A DNA stretch of 64,000 nucleotides from Melanopsichium pennsylvanicum (lineage: Eukaryota > Basidiomycota > Ustilaginomycetes > Ustilaginales). The notes under the pieces were generated by a model, which was not told where the DNA came from, searched no databases, and worked only from the letters and a program-made list of their open reading frames with translations. Location of the stretch: positions 930,001 through 994,000 of the forward strand of contig OAPG01000003.1 of assembly GCA_900208305.1 (NCBI GenBank), written 5' to 3'. A program made the position numbers and the translations under genes. Positions 45,477 to 53,038 of this stretch are shown piece by piece. How positions within the stretch are numbered: position 1 is the stretch's first letter; the number at the start of each line of letters is the position of its first letter.

Positions 45477-46486
45477 TGTCAGCGGTCGCGTGCCAGAGAT
45501 CCGAATTCCCGTGAGAAAGCGCGACTCGCCGGATTTCAGTGAATTCCGGCGGTTAAGCTTGGCCTCAACGGATATCGAAGAGAATCCCGCGAGTGGCGAT
45601 CTCTCGACGGATATCGGCTGACCGCTGGTGACACTCCGTACAGAGGTAACGCGGCAAGCTCGGACGGGGTATTCGGTCGACGCGAGTGTCACGACGTCGA
45701 CGGGATACTGCTGATGGCTGGGTTAGACCTCAGCCGTCGTTGTCGGTGGAGTTATGAGGGACTGGTTGTGGTGCCAGGCCGCGGTTGAGGTTCCGCCTGT
45801 AGTTGAGGTGCTACAGCGTCGATTGTGGTGTCGACAACGTCTATACGTTGTTCTCCGTTCACCGACGGGGACACAGACTATATGGATCGCAATAAATGGT
45901 ATTGCGATGTGCGACGTGTGAAGAGTATGGTAAGTACGACGTACTGATAACTATGTGTGACTGAGATATAAGATAGAGTGGATGAGCTTCCGCTCATCCG
46001 ATAGCGGGGAACAGAGTATTTATATATATGTATTGTGTGCGAGGTCCATCGGTACTGTACGACCTGCGTGCGTCGAGCTTGGACCCCCGCACGATAAGAC
46101 TGCCCCCTAGTCCTTCGGCAGGGTGCTTCCGAGCACGCCCGCGTGCTCCCTCTCCGTTGCCCCCTGGGCGTCGATTGGCCCACGTGTCGTTCCGGCGTGG
46201 CGTTGGTTGCCGCCATTGCAGATGCTCCCCTTGCCATCGATACCTTCGATATCCGGCGAGTCACTGCCACTCGCCGAATTTCCGTGAGATCCGTTGAGAC
46301 CTGCTCTCTCACCGGATTTCGTCCGATTCAACTTCTTGGTCCTGCGCTAACCTTAAATCCCATGAGCCCACCAATATCCACCAGATCTCCCTGAGATCCG
46401 TCGAGACATGCTCTCCCACCGGATCTCAGCCGATTCAACATCTCTGGTCTGCGCAGACCTCTTCCTTGGGACCCACTCCCGTGACA
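45477..46486 (-). repeat. Left LTR (3' LTR of the chromovirus), 1010 bp
   Basis: It begins TGTCAGCGGTCGCG and ends CCCGTGACA on the plus strand, so both strands start TG and end CA. It differs from the right LTR at 12 of 1010 positions. Ten differences are at CpG, one is a non-CpG C/T and one a C/G. In this copy the three mutated CpGs are C to T on the plus strand. Confidence 0.95.
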
Positions 46487-46500
46487 CTACCCCCCCTTCG
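46487..46500 (-). promoter_or_regulatory. Polypurine tract of the chromovirus
   Basis: Reading the minus strand, CGAAGGGGGGGTAG lies immediately upstream of the 3' LTR. This is where plus-strand DNA synthesis would be primed. It fixes the element's orientation independently of pol. Confidence 0.8.
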
Positions 46501-46588
46501 AGAGCCAAGCTCCGTTGAGGCTTAAATAGGGTCGGCGGGTGTTCCCCCGACTTGTTCTTCCACCAACAGCACCTTCTAAACCGTCAAG

Positions 46589-47746
46589 ATGTCGAACCAC
46601 TCGAATAATGCCCCTTCCGCTGCGTCATTGCGACCAGCGTCGACACGACTGCCTGCCCTCAGGGCAGAAGAGCCTGTGCGCCGTAGCGCCAGGCTTCGCA
46701 ACCGAAATCCTGCCACTTGGGCAGTGACAACACCTTCGGCTGTCGGCCTCGAGGCCACAGCTTTGTCGTCCCCTGCTGCTGGCGAGCAGCCCATCGAAAT
46801 TGTGGCTGCCGAGCAGCTCGTCGCGTTGCGGTCAACGCCGCGACCACTGGAGCCGTTGTTCCTGGGGAGCGATGCCGCAGGGGAGGAGGAAGAGCGGCTG
46901 GAGGCAATGGAGGTGGAGGAGTCGGTTGTAGGGAGGGTGAGCGAGGCCGGGGAGGACCCTGTCGCTCTGCTTGTTGGGCCTCGTGTGCCAAACCACCTCG
47001 AGATCGCGCTGTGGGCGGAGTCTTTTATCGCTCCGGTGTTGCTGGTATTCGTGGCGTGCGAGGCCTGGCCCCCTACTTGGGAGGTATCGGAGGGTTCCGT
47101 GACGGCCGGTCGGCTGCATCGTTTGGTCCTCCTTCGACTGACTGAAGGCTGCATGCCTTGGCCGAGCTGGCAATGCGCCTGATGCGCGAAGCTTGGTATA
47201 CCGTAAGTACTACTGCTCCCTTCTGCGTTCGATACTCGTGTCCGTTCGATACGCATTGCTGACCGTGGTTCTCCCCTTTTTTGTCCCAGTTGTTTTGCGT
47301 CGGCTTTTGCTGACGTACTTTCTGCCGGTGGCAAGGGCAGGACTCCGCGCGCTTGTGTGCACTGCCATCTTGGCGGCCACAAGAAGTGCATGCGAACTGC
47401 GAGGGCGTTGCCGACGACGGTATACGCTGGCGACGCTCCTCCTTGCCACCTGCATTGAGGCGAGCGTGGCGTCGAGCGAGCTCACGTCACGGGAGCGGGA
47501 GGTCAAGGATTGGGAGAGGTACGTAGGATCGACCGTGACTCAAACGGTGTGGAGGACCCAAACTGGGCGTACGCGATGCGTATCATTTGGTCCGCTTCGC
47601 CTCGCAGTCGGCGAGTCCCGGTGCTGACAATGATCGAGGAGTACCTCGATCGTCAGCGACGAGTGCGGTCTATGCGCTCGCCTTTCGAGGATCTCGAGCC
47701 TTCTTCGGTGCCTGGGCCTTCGTCAGCCCCCGAGTCTGCGGAATAG
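46589..47746 (+). pseudogene. Antisense two-exon gene with cysteine clusters inside the retroelement
   Basis: This gene runs opposite to pol. Exon 1 is 46589-47202 and exon 2 is 47290-47746. The intron (47203-47289) is canonical: GTAAGT, a CTGAC-like branch site and a T-rich tract ending CCCAG. Both exons stay in one frame when joined (356 codons) except for TGA at 47180-47182 and 47456-47458. Each TGA would be CGA (Arg) before a CpG transition. Around the junction the cysteines form C-x2-C-x6-C (first TGA inside it) and, about 20 residues on, CVHCHLGGHKKC (C-x2-C-x7-C). The N-terminal part is Ala/Arg-rich, then acidic. A TATA-like TTAAATAG lies about 65 bp upstream, just inside the LTR border. 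Paired Cys clusters of this type occur in many basidiomycete orphan proteins; function unknown. It could also be a captured host gene. Confidence 0.6.
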
Positions 47747-48182: not shown

Positions 48183-51100
48183 TTAGTGTCTCCGTCCCCC
48201 CGCCGATTCCTCATACTCCCGGATGAGGTCTGGGCAGTTGAGACAGTCTGTCGGTTCCCACGAGGCTGCCTCCTTGGGGTAGCCCCTCCATTGGACTTTG
48301 TACTGCACTTGCCTACCCTGTTTTCGCTTTCCTACAATAGCCTCTACCTCGAATTCTAGAGTGTCGTCCGGTAGGGGCGGCGTGACTTCGAGTGTGGAGC
48401 GCTGTGGGAGTGAGCTCGCCCTTTGAGGCTCGAGCATCGAGACATGGAAAACGTCGTGTACGCGCAAACTTGCTGGGAGTTGGAGCCGGTATGCTCTTCT
48501 GCCGATTCGTTCGAGGATGGGGAACGGGCCTGCTAACCTTGTGTCGAGTTTGGGACTGGGTCGAGCTGTCTTCCAGTTCTTTCGGTTGACGTAGACCATG
48601 TCTCCAACTTTGAACTCGATGTCCATCCGTTTGCGGTTATATTGCTCAACGGTTCGGCTTTGAGCGTACCTGATTTGCTCCTGTAGATACTCCGTAAATT
48701 CTTTTCTTCGGGTGGCAAACTCTTTCCTCTTGGGGTCGAGCACACCGACTTGTTCTGGGAGATCGGGGTGTGACTTTGGATTCCACCCGTAGCAAGCAAA
48801 GAAAGGCGAGACTCCTATGCTGCTGTGGACCGTGTTGTTGTAAACGAACTCGGCCATCGGCAGCCAGGTTACCCAGTTGTCCTGCTCGTAGTTGCAGTAC
48901 ATACGGAGGTACTGCTCGACAACTTGATTGACTCGCTCCGTTTGCCCGTCCGTCTGTGGGTGGTAGGCTGTGCTGAGCGAGTGGTGGATGACCAGCTTGT
49001 CGGTGAACTCTTTCCATGCTGCCGAGACGAATTGTTGGCCGCGGTCTGAGACAATGTGCTCCGGTACCCCGAAACGGGACATAACTTGGTCTTTGAGCAT
49101 CTTTGCCGTCTGCTCCGACGTTATTGTCTTGTACGTCGGGGTTAAGATGGCATATTTGGTCAACCGGTCGACCACTACGAAGATCGAGTCATACCCCTCC
49201 GATTTAGGTAACCCTTCAATGAAATCCATCGAGATGGAATTCCAGGGTCTTGACGGCGTCGACAGCGGCTGCAAAAGGCCATATGGTCGGTGTCGCGGTG
49301 CTTTATATCGAGCGCACACTGGGCAGCTTGCTACATAGTCAGCAACCCATGCCGCCATATTTGGCCACCAATAATGCCGCCTTGTGAGCTCGAGGGTGGC
49401 GTCTCAACCTGCATGGCCAGCGGTAGCGCCGTCGTGGCATTGGGACATTACCATGTACCTCAGGTGCTCCACCGAGAGCGAGCGATCTTTGGCTTCGGCG
49501 GCACTCCGAGTGTTGCGTTGACCTTTCTTACCTGGTAATGTGACTCGCGGCACCACTAGCCGACCGTCGCGATACCACAGGCCATGTCTAACTTCGAAAG
49601 GTTGCTTCTGATGAAGCTCTGCGAGCTCGGCATCGAGCGGCTGGAAAGTCTTTACGAGTTGGACCAGCCCTCCCTCCGCGATATCGGACATCGTTGGCTT
49701 TAGCATATTTATTTGAGATTCGGCGAGTTGCTCCTTCTTGGCGGATTTCGGTGAAATCCGCCGAGTTGAGTCCACTTGGCGGTTTTCGAAATCCTCGGCA
49801 AATACTCGTGCCGGTAACAGCTGTCGGACGTTGTGTAGGTCTTCTTCTGCGGTCGGCTGCATATCACTTTGTCGTGTCAACGCATCTGGCTCTCCCGCTT
49901 TATCTCCCGGTCTGTATTGGAGTACGAAGTTGAAGTCAGCAAGTAACACTGACCATCGAGCCTGCCGACCTGTGATCTTCCGCTGCGACTTAAAGTATTT
50001 GAGCGCCTCGTGATCAGTGAGAATAATGAGCTGACTAGGTAGTCCTGCAAGCATGTGCCGCCAGTGGTTGAGACAGACGACAACAGCGAGGAGTTCCTTG
50101 TCATGGATCTCGTAGTTCTTCTCCGCCGATGCCATCTTACGCGAGTAGAATGCTATTGGGTGCCATCGTCCATCGTGCTCTTGTTTGAGTACTCCAGCGA
50201 GGGCGAAGTCGCTTGCGTCCGTTTCCAACCGGGTAGGACGATGGTAATCGAAGTGTTTGAGAACCCCAGCGGTGGTGAACATTTCCACCAGCTTGTGGAA
50301 AGCAGCGCGAGCGTCGTCAGGGAGGTCGAACTTCTTGAATTGCTCTGTGGGCTTAACGAGGGAAGTGAGCGGTCTCGCTATACGTGCAAAGTGAGAGATG
50401 AATCTGCGATAGAAGTTGGCGAACCCGAGGAAGCGTTGGATGTCGTGTATAGACTCCAGCATCGGCCATTCCTTGATAGTCCTGATCTTGTCGGGGTCCA
50501 TCTCGATACCTGACGGCTTGATGATATAGCCGAGGAACTCAACAGTATCGGTATGGAACACGCACTTCGAGAGTTTGGCGAATAACCGCCATACCTTGAG
50601 CCTACTGAGCACCGTCCTGACGTGCTCGATGTGTTCCTTCTCGTTGTCGCTGAAGATCAGGAAGTCGTCAAGGTATACTACCACGTATACGCCAATGATG
50701 TCGCGGTAGATGGTGTTGATGAGCGATTGGAAGTGCGCGGGCGCATTTGCCAATCCGAATGGCATGACCAGATACTCATACAGTCCGAGTTGAGTTCCAA
50801 ACGCGGTTTTCCATTTGTCCGCGTCGGCGATCCTAACCAAGTTGTAAGCTGCCTTTAGGTCCAGCTTGGTATAGATCTTCGCTTTTCGTAGGAGGAACAG
50901 CTGCTCCTCGATTAAGGGCAGTGGTGCTTGGTTATTAACCGTGACCTTGTTGAGACCGCGGTAGTCTACGCAGAGTCGCAGGCCGCCGTCCTTCTTAGGC
51001 ACAAAAAGGACGGGGGATTGCGCCGGGCTCTTTGAGGGCCGAATGAATCCCTTCTCAAGATTCTCTTCGAGGTACTTCCTCAGCTCGGCCATCTCCTTAG

Positions 51101-51356
51101 GTCCCTTGAGATATAGCGGACCTTGAGGTGGCGTCGAACTGGGTAGTAGCTCGATGTGCAAGTCGTGCTTTGTGTGAGGGGGAAGCTTGTCCGCTTTGAC
51201 CTCGTCGAATACATCCTTGAGGGGGTAGTACGGGGCTGGGATTTCGACGGCAGTGGGAGGCTCTTCTAGTGTCGTTTCCATCTCTATGCCTTTGTCGCCT
51301 CCCGTGGGGACAAAGCCAAACAACGGGAGCGACGTCGGAGGAGCGCTGATTAGCAT
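48183..51356 (-). pseudogene. pol: Chromovirus pol: RT, RNase H, integrase, chromodomain, one in-frame stop
   Basis: This polyprotein frame starts at the Met at 51356 and, apart from a TGA at 49406-49404, is open to 48183 in the same frame. Reverse transcriptase: LRLCVDYRGLNKVT, KLDLKAAYNLVRI, MPFGLANAPAHFQ and the catalytic VVYLDDFLIF. RNase H: RLETDASDFALAGVL, EIHDKELLAVV and LTDHEAL. Integrase: an N-terminal HHCC finger (around CHDGATAGHAG and CPVC, spanning the stop), then the DDE core SMDFIEGLPKS, IVSDRGQQFVS and QTDGQTERVNQVVEQ. The C-terminus is a chromodomain (EFEVEAIVGKRKQGRQVQYK, then WRGYPKEAASWEP), which defines chromoviruses and targets heterochromatin. The stop lies between RNase H and integrase and would be Arg (CGA) before a CpG transition. 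No protease motif precedes RT. Confidence 0.93.
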
Positions 51357-51594: not shown

Positions 51595-53038
51595 TGTCAG
51601 CGGTCGCGTGCCAGAGATCCGAATTTCCGTGAGAAAGCGCGACTCGCCGGATTTCAGTGAATTTGTTAAGGCTGTAGGGTCTAGATACCGCGGGCGGCTA
51701 CAACCGGGATGGAGGCTACGGGTACGGAGAGGTCGTAGGCGGGGCGACACAGGCGGTCGGGGGTCAGAGCACACTACTGCGTTGCTATAGAGCTAACTAA
51801 GTAATACATGCGACGAGGTCCGGAGGCAACCTCATGTCAGGCGGGGGCGGGGTGGTAAGGTACAGGAACTATCGGTCACTTCCCACCGCGGCGTTACAAT
51901 GTTAGGTTGCCGACGGTCGTATCCTACGTACGGAGGGGCCAGCCGCGGTTGGGCGGTAGGAGGATTGTGTCAGGCCGACCGCTCCGCTGCAAGGGGTCCG
52001 GAGAGGGTCGGTCGGGGCCCGATCACGACGATCGCTCAATTGGGGGGGGGCCGAGCACCCCCTCTTTGGACTCCGGTTGGTAGGCACTAACAGAATTCCG
52101 GCGGTTAAGCTTGGCCTCAACGGATATCGAAGAGAATCCCGCGAGTGGCGATCTCTCGACGGATATCGGCTGACCGCTGGTGACACTCCGTACAGAGGTA
52201 ACGCGGCAAGCTCGGACGGGGTATTCGGTCGACGCAAGTGTCACAACGTCGACGGGATACTGCTGATGGCTGGGTTAGACCTCAGCCGTCGTTGTCGGTG
52301 GAGTTATGAGGGACTGGTTGTGGTGCCAGGCCGCGGTTGAGGTTCCGCCTGTAGTTGAGGTGCTACAGCGTCGATTGTGGTGTCGACAACGTCTATACGT
52401 TGTTCTCCGTTCACCGACGGGGACACAGACTATATGGATCGCAATAAATGGTATTGCAATGTGCGACGTGTGAAGAGTATGGTAAGTACAACGTACTGAT
52501 AACTATGTGTGACTGAGATATAAGATAGAGTGGATGAGCTTCCGCTCATCCGATAGCGGGGAACAGAGTATTTATATATATGTATTGTGTGCGAGGTCCA
52601 TCGGTACTGTACGACCTGCATGCGTCGAGCTTGGACCCCCGCACGATAAGACTGCCCCCTAGTCCTTCGGCAGGGTGCTTCCGAGCACGCCCACGTGCTC
52701 CCTCTCCGTTGCCCCCTGGGCGTCGATTGGCCCACGTGTCGTTCCGGCGTGGCGTTGGTCGCCGCCATCGCAGATGCTCCCCTTGCCATCGATACCTTCG
52801 ATATCCGGCAAGTCACTGCCACTCGCCGAATTTCCGTGAGATCCGTTGAGACCTGCTCTCTCACCGGATTTCGTCCGATTCAACTTCTCGGTCCTGCGCT
52901 AAGCTTAAATCCCATGAGCCCACCAATATCCACCAGATCTCCCTGAGATCCGTCGAGACATGCTCTCCCACCGGATCTCAGCCGATTCAACATCTCTGGT
53001 CTGCGCAGACCTCTTCCTTGGGACCCACTCCCGTGACA
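51595..53038 (-). repeat. Right LTR (5' LTR of the chromovirus), interrupted
   Basis: The LTR is 1010 bp after removing the 429-bp solo LTR at 51664-52092 and one copy of its GAATT duplication, exactly the length of the left LTR. Relative to the left copy all seven of its own CpG changes read G to A on the plus strand. Confidence 0.95.
51664..52092. mobile_element. Nested solo LTR of a second retrotransposon family, 429 bp
   Basis: The insert has TGTTA...TAACA ends (TG...CA) and is flanked by direct GAATT copies (51659-51663 and 52093-52097), where the intact left LTR has a single GAATT. It has no coding frame, so it is a solo LTR left after recombination between the two LTRs of an element. 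It is GC- and CpG-rich, which suggests it is recent. Its family and orientation are unknown. Confidence 0.9.

Follow-up and report, generated by a model that had tools for sequence, protein, structure and literature searches.

An intron-containing antisense gene conserved among chromoviruses of the smut fungus Melanopsichium pennsylvanicum and highly diverse within one family

HBZ, the antisense gene near the 3′ LTR of HTLV-1, is spliced and encodes a regulator. Copy-number control of Ty1 uses p22, a protein made from the sense gag frame. The HTLV antisense promoter lies inside the 3′ LTR, according to a review (PMC7264820). The same review describes a group of plant antisense ORFs, aORF-3R, situated between pol and the 3′ LTR and represented by Grande gene23, RIRE2, Retand and PvRetro13; these ORFs are conserved over copies, have no database homologs and are of unknown function, and for Grande gene23 an own promoter and a nuclear protein have been reported (PMC7264820). 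The LTR retrotransposon Cer1 of C. elegans also has an accessory protein, CERV, which is reported to be needed for nuclear export of genomic RNA (PMC10309623); the host is different, and the case serves here only as an example of an accessory role. A further paper (PMC9603552) was a background source only.

We describe a gene of smut fungi for which the plant aORF-3R group is the closest published kind in the literature searched, the smut gene being an intron-containing version with a conserved cysteine domain. Like its plant counterparts, it is antisense to pol, is located between pol and the 3′ LTR and is kept across most copies of its family (family 1). It differs from them in its fungal host, in a six-cysteine domain, in high, recombined allelic diversity and in a spliceosomal intron within the coding frame, introns not being mentioned in that review (PMC7264820). 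With HBZ it shares the antisense orientation near the 3′ LTR; however, its putative promoter appears just inside the LTR edge rather than in the LTR, and a bZIP domain is not among the Pfam matches of its product. The first-pass annotation of this DNA had called such a gene no standard part of a chromovirus. For fungi this holds in the literature searched, where we found no antisense intron-containing gene in an LTR element (subscription papers were mostly outside reach); plant elements have antisense ORFs at the same place (PMC7264820).

The window analysed is a stretch of 64,000 nt of M. pennsylvanicum DNA (GenBank assembly GCA_900208305.1, contig OAPG01000003.1, positions 930,001 to 994,000); all coordinates below count from its first letter. 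It contains a Ty3/gypsy chromovirus whose sense direction is the minus strand. On this strand we located the 3′ LTR (45477..46486, 1010 bp, ends TGTCA..TGACA) by repeat search and LTR matches in long copies, and the adjoining polypurine tract (46487..46500, plus-strand letters CTACCCCCCCTTCG) from the sequence; a similar tract stands at the LTR edge of a second family. The 3′ part of pol, with the integrase core, SH3_Tf2-1 and the chromodomain (48183..49358, minus strand), was found with Pfam, and the reverse transcriptase and RNase H part (49404..51356, minus strand) with Pfam and by comparison with full-length copies. The 5′ LTR (51595..53038, minus strand; repeats and long copies) is interrupted by an insert and is 98.8% identical to the 3′ LTR over 947 bp. 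The window copy is decayed: relative to full-length copies, gag and the start of pol are gone. A full copy, L009, codes for a gag of 456 aa with a zinc knuckle (CCHC) and a pol of 1280 aa with PR, RT, RH, H2C2, rve, SH3_Tf2-1 and Chromo domains, i.e. it has the gag, the PR-RT-RH-IN order and the C-terminal chromodomain of a chromovirus. The insert in the 5′ LTR of the window copy (429 bp, 51664-52092) is flanked by a 5-bp duplication and resembles a small solo LTR, and the LTR of another copy, L013, has a stretch related to it (about 86%) at its side.

The antisense gene occupies the plus strand between the polypurine tract and pol. It has 356 codons and a stop, with the start ATG at 46589, 102 bp inside the LTR edge. 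Exon 1 (46589..47202, plus strand, 614 nt, 204 codons and 2 nt) and exon 2 (47290..47746, plus strand, 457 nt, ending at TAG), both delimited by ORF translation and a 34-copy alignment, are separated by a phase 2 intron of 87 nt (47203..47289, plus strand, GTAAGT...CAG), seen in the sequence and in the same alignment. A TATA-like box, TTAAATAG (46522..46529, plus strand), precedes the ATG by 60 bp; the sequence CTTAAATAGGG is identical in all 32 copies holding the site, the region being absent in 2 of the 34. Translation and copy alignment place two cysteine clusters in the product. Cluster 1, C-x2-C-x6-C (47174..47293, plus strand, codons 196-206), spans the intron, and cluster 2, C-x2-C-x7-C, lies at 47354..47389 on the plus strand (codons 227-238). 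In the window copy, two in-frame TGA codons interrupt the frame, at codons 198 and 261. TGA-198 (47180), private to this copy, breaks cluster 1, and TGA-261 (47456 in the window) was found in 8 of the 34 copies, the window copy included. The first-pass annotation had described this structure from the letters alone, and each of its elements (the ATG, two exons in one frame over a GTAAGT...CAG intron for 356 codons, two TGA codons, paired cysteine clusters and an upstream TATA-like box) is present where it was placed. The copies with TGA-261 stand on different allele backgrounds; the stop is either a recurrent mutation or a recombining truncated allele.

A search of the M. pennsylvanicum genome (21.1 Mb) gave 42 gene matches. 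We aligned 34 of them (the window copy and 33 others) and left out the remaining eight, which are fragments; L001-L008 repeat the window and L009-L015 and were excluded from the counts. L019, with a gene sequence the same as that of L018, was omitted from the counts of shared and singleton changes, the N/S test, the LD and four-gamete analyses, the allele classes, the pair count and the bootstrap, while the 16-copy comparison of dS and dN includes both. L018 and L019 (G000:C14, about 11.5 kb apart) carry the same 5′-truncated gene and look like a tandem segmental duplication; L034, a third family-1 copy at the same spacing, has a quite different, full-length allele.

In the gene frame, 15 stops are spread over 14 of the 34 aligned copies, against 128-232 stops, affecting 34/34 copies, in the other two forward and the three reverse frames over the same spliced columns. 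Intact copies, which the first-pass annotation proposed to look for, were found: 16 of the 34 are complete and free of internal stops, 14 have stops and four are truncated without stops. The splice donor reads GTAAGT in 28 copies, GTGAGT in five and ATAAGT in one; the acceptor CAG occurs in 34/34, and the whole pattern GT(A/G)AGT...CCCAG in 33/34. All six cluster cysteines are kept in all 34 copies, save for codon 227, lost in L029 (33/34). Where complete, exon 1 measures 614, 605 or 593 nt and exon 2 457 nt, and the intron varies between 70 and 94 nt. Compared with the window copy, the exons have two distinct indels (9 and 21 nt, both in exon 1; none internal to exon 2), the intron has nine, none of them a multiple of three, and the downstream region 20, of which five are multiples of three. 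Random decay in other copies of the frame, the cysteines and the intron borders, or absence of the segment itself, was the outcome that the first-pass annotation named as fatal to the gene; the family-1 copies do not show it.

The gene frame is open far beyond chance and is under purifying selection. Its dN/dS is 0.284 (561 pairs), compared with 0.90 and 1.53 in the other forward frames and 0.94, 0.41 and 1.71 in the reverse frames; we take the value of 0.41 to be a shadow of the gene's own third positions. Divergence at the three codon positions is.073/.048/.135, and.110 in the intron. With a mutation spectrum drawn from the noncoding parts, neutral change would give an N/S of 2.01, while the observed values are 0.96 for shared changes (p 2.8e-9) and 1.06 for singleton changes (p 5e-4). 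Singletons are thus as constrained as shared changes and do not come purely from decay after insertion. The dN/dS of 0.28, the frame-preserving indels and the cysteines kept across families together show that selection acts on a protein.

The window also has a minus-strand ORF (46576-47391, 271 aa) overlapping exon 1, the intron and the start of exon 2, so that the antisense frame could be imagined as its shadow, or as a frame open by chance. Yet in 20 of 32 copies the length of this ORF is not divisible by three, so that its frame is broken, and only 5/32 are stop-free to its end; the ORF is not conserved. Selection follows the antisense spliced frame instead, and the multi-copy alignment refutes the chance or shadow explanation, whose probability we consider negligible.

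Constraint on the gene can be compared with that on gag and pol. In one set of 16 copies, dN/dS is 0.24 in pol, 0.23 in gag, 0.31 in exon 1 and 0.23 in exon 2, so by this measure the antisense gene is held about as tightly as gag and pol. The same counting restricted to shared changes gives 0.32 for the gene versus 0.20 for pol and gag, i.e. the gene is somewhat looser.

Searches of Pfam, NCBIfam and PDB found no match above cut-off for the antisense protein. Its AlphaFold model is poor (mean pLDDT 48.9), with no fold match in PDB at E <= 0.001. The clusters of Gal4-type Zn(2)Cys(6) proteins have a middle loop of about 5-12 residues. The six cysteines of the smut protein, C-x2-C-x6-C ... C-x2-C-x7-C, resemble this type (PF00172), but the loop between the half-clusters has 18 residues in family 2 and Ustilago and 20 in family 1, and the PF00172 score is 8.4 bits against a cut-off of 21, over 12 residues only (for the first member of a set of five proteins, all five of which match weakly). 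PF00172 is absent from the Pfam matches of a 31-member protein set at E<=1. We therefore rejected membership in the Zn(2)Cys(6) Gal4-type family, since the profile cut-off is not reached and the loop length is outside the pattern. Judging from the cysteine pattern, the protein may bind zinc.

The gene belongs to the element rather than to single copies. A pol-based search, in which the best 40 of 112 candidates were scored, yielded 35 full-length matches. The gene segment, complete or partial, is found no more than 2 kb away on the expected side in 32 of these and about 10 kb away in two, and is missing from one. Conservation near 34 of the 35 full-length family-1 pol matches (best 40 of 112) is the kind that defines plant aORF-3R. 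The gene recurs, at the same place, in a second family of this genome. Its representative L042 (G000:C4:388500-396500) is a young copy, with LTRs 99.6% identical, nested in a family-1 copy; its gene codes for 439 aa and has an intron of 71 nt (GTAAGT..TTGTAG) at the same codon as the family-1 intron. Family 2 and family 1 have about 73% DNA identity over 1162 bp of pol.

Profile searches for the antisense protein detected 36, 81 and 5 proteins; with about 8000 candidates, those sharing most words, scored in each, they may have missed distant relatives. All labelled matches come from Melanopsichium or Ustilago and none from outside the smuts (some are unlabelled metagenome proteins). The labelled Ustilago sources are hordei, nuda, tritici, bromivora and two unnamed Ustilago, and their proteins are 28-42% identical to the Melanopsichium protein P0002. 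Four models that are Ustilago or unlabelled (P0034, P0035, P0036 and P0054) break off at precisely the codon at which the Melanopsichium intron begins, which is what models reading into GTAAGT would do, and P0069 opens with unrelated residues just before CFASAF. Judged from the gene models, the gene is present in Ustilago. All six sequences compared (family 1, family 2 and Ustilago) have the pattern C-x2-C-x6-C-x18/20-C-x2-C-x7-C without change. Ustilago models that lose part of it exist, e.g. P0033, and are perhaps decayed copies or wrong models. Among viral contigs, 21 matches to the pattern were obtained, none of which was confirmed. Three smut proteins named 'related to monocarboxylate permease' or 'related to Mig1 protein' (P0053, P0064 and P0066) also match the antisense gene family; the names are probably misannotations or reflect fused models.

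The first-pass annotation had left two options, a gene captured by the element or an accessory antisense gene of the family. An antisense intron is as expected of a captured host gene carried as a passenger by one element, and public annotation, labelled Melanopsichium pennsylvanicum, holds spliced gene models matching the antisense product. Purifying selection, however, refutes the passenger part of the idea, the gene occurs in two families and in Ustilago, and the matches of a protein search of the own genome, read by eye, all fall at places of family-1 or family-2 gene matches. No non-element homolog was found in the own-genome protein and family-2 gene searches, and capture is in our judgement quite unlikely. 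The accessory option is supported by the 34 of 35 pol matches (best 40 of 112), by purifying selection, by the second family and by the Ustilago models; the gene-less junctions of family 2, described below, qualify it.

The gene is also unusually diverse within family 1. The pol, gag and tile analyses used the 21 long copies only (the window copy and L009-L028). Tiled along the element, nucleotide diversity reaches 0.05-0.09 in the gene, compared with 0.01-0.04 in LTR, pol and gag. In 50-bp steps, it climbs at the ATG from 0.04 to 0.165 and is back at background some 200-250 bp past the stop; low diversity resumes on both sides, in the LTR and leader on one and in pol on the other. In the same 16 copies as above, dS is 0.176 for both exons, three to four times that in pol (0.053) and gag (0.045). 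The gene/pol ratio of dS is 2.88 (2.46-3.27, bootstrap over copies), the gene value being the larger in 178 of 190 pairs. Shared and singleton synonymous changes stand at 114:50 in the gene, compared with 133:111 in pol (p 0.003) and 28:24 in gag (p 0.045), the excess being weighted towards changes found in at least two copies. Singletons per synonymous site are more frequent in the gene too (0.175; pol 0.126, gag 0.078), so a modest local rate effect is possible. The LTRs of a copy differ by 0-3.4% in 14 of the 15 measurable copies (6.9% in L025), mostly over about 300 bp, and most allele differences should therefore predate the insertions. As a source of the diversity, we rejected hypermutation of single-stranded minus-strand DNA by the polypurine tract: C>T and G>A are balanced (shared changes 42:34 in exon 1 and 24:27 in exon 2), the boundary is abrupt and there is no gradient.

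Alleles have been shuffled, both against the rest of the element and within the gene. Pairwise divergence of the gene is barely correlated with that of pol (Spearman 0.06-0.21), LD decays within the gene and the four-gamete test fails at 244 of 561 transversion site pairs. Each of eight blocks has 4-7 allele classes at 5%, combined in many ways (28 copies, six duplicate or truncated ones being left out). L016 and L024 have a pS of 0.163 in exon 1 and 0.017 in exon 2, and their own LTRs show no difference over the 328 and 297 bp compared; this contrast, with zero LTR differences, indicates that shuffling is recent or ongoing. The antisense gene is a recombining multi-allelic locus of the element population.

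According to the main rival explanation, the protein is real, but a gag-pol backbone swept recently and old gene versions were recombined onto it, diversity being a by-product without selection for it. Several observations are in favour: identity with L009 is 95-98% for the other 34 full-length pol matches and drops to 74% for the next relative listed (best 40 of 112), mosaics are abundant, and family 2 has no diversity excess, its four full-length gene copies being 99% identical, so that the high diversity of family 1 is not general. After such a sweep, however, the LTR U3 beyond the gene should also be diverse, yet low diversity returns on both sides, and donor backbones with intermediate pol, the intermediate subfamilies that could have supplied the alleles, are absent among the pol matches listed (best 40 of 112 candidates). 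We regard a sweep of this kind as a serious possibility and lean against it.

We favour the reading, with a probability of roughly 0.55, that this is a genuine spliced antisense accessory gene of a smut chromovirus lineage, with a trans-acting zinc-binding product and with allele diversity kept by selection. The conserved frame and splice borders, the six cysteines, the TATA-like box, purifying selection, the occurrence in two families and the Ustilago homologs are observed parts of it. Transcription of the gene would start from a promoter of its own, situated between the polypurine tract and the ATG, and splicing would follow. The antisense orientation hides the intron from splicing of the sense genomic RNA and so lets it persist through retrotransposition. 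The predicted zinc-binding product may act in trans on element RNA or DNA, possibly resembling in this a retroviral antisense regulator or a plant aORF-3R protein; by analogy with Ty1 copy-number control, element-encoded self-limitation would be one possible role. Divergent allele classes are recombined onto nearly uniform gag-pol backbones, most simply by template switching. Selection would maintain this diversity, the likeliest reason being that homology-dependent control (RNAi or self-repression) misses rare variants.

The genome has one Piwi (Argonaute) locus and three RdRP loci, so antisense transcription could feed RNAi. An explanation by RNA alone can be built on this: antisense transcription forms dsRNA with the genomic RNA and feeds RNAi, the frame being incidental. 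The limits of the diverse zone are in its favour, as the zone opens at the ATG, immediately past the TATA-like box, and has faded some 200-250 bp beyond the stop; but the dN/dS of 0.28, the frame-keeping indels and the cross-family cysteines are marks of selection on a protein. An RNA effect can thus be added to the protein reading, and as the whole explanation it is unlikely. Within our preferred reading of a selected protein, escape from homology-dependent silencing agrees with a diversity zone that coincides with the putative transcript and extends to synonymous and intron sites in addition to amino acids. We tentatively suggest, as one specific possibility, that the gene is kept polymorphic like an immune or incompatibility locus, rare alleles escaping siRNAs from the antisense/sense duplexes of other copies or a homotypic protein. 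If so, frequency-dependent selection would be at work within a transposon population. That old, recombining alleles are in roughly three-fold excess in this one gene suggests that allelic diversity may be maintained by transposons as it is by pathogens or mating loci. The analysis also identifies a set of 'uncharacterized' Melanopsichium proteins as products of transposon genes and suggests the same for the Ustilago relatives. Smut fungi can be grown in culture, and the antisense gene is therefore open to testing.

Family 2 also exists without the gene. A query over the LTR-pol junction of L043 (G000:C10:183900-188900) had 20 uninterrupted matches, i.e. gene-less junctions (two of them in tandem in L043), and gene-bearing copies match it only as separate halves, six of each. 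Gene-less junctions (20; L043 2540-2620) thus outnumber the gene-bearing copies (about six with flanks). They are 99-100% identical, and the deletion extends from just before the ATG to about 36 bp before the stop, between imperfect 20-bp repeats, as template switching would give. The RNase H-integrase-chromodomain frame of L043 is open. With 20 near-identical gene-less junctions, the gene is evidently not needed in cis for recent amplification. In the form represented by L042, gag, PR, RT and the antisense gene are kept and the chromodomain end survives as DNA, but a stretch of pol of about 1.8 kb, with most of RNase H and the integrase, is gone. The pol junction of L042 is common to two other gene-bearing places (C12 and C13), which makes mobilisation of this form in trans probable. 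As a single genome holds the element both with and without the gene, dependence in cis or in trans can be tested directly; if the gene is indeed kept polymorphic like an incompatibility locus, the gene-less family-2 elements would be escapees, or cheats living on the product of others. Two more distant relatives of the family-2 gene, at G000:C23:281578-282387 and G000:C4:4846-5227, have 68% and 73% DNA identity to it and perhaps represent an older third family.
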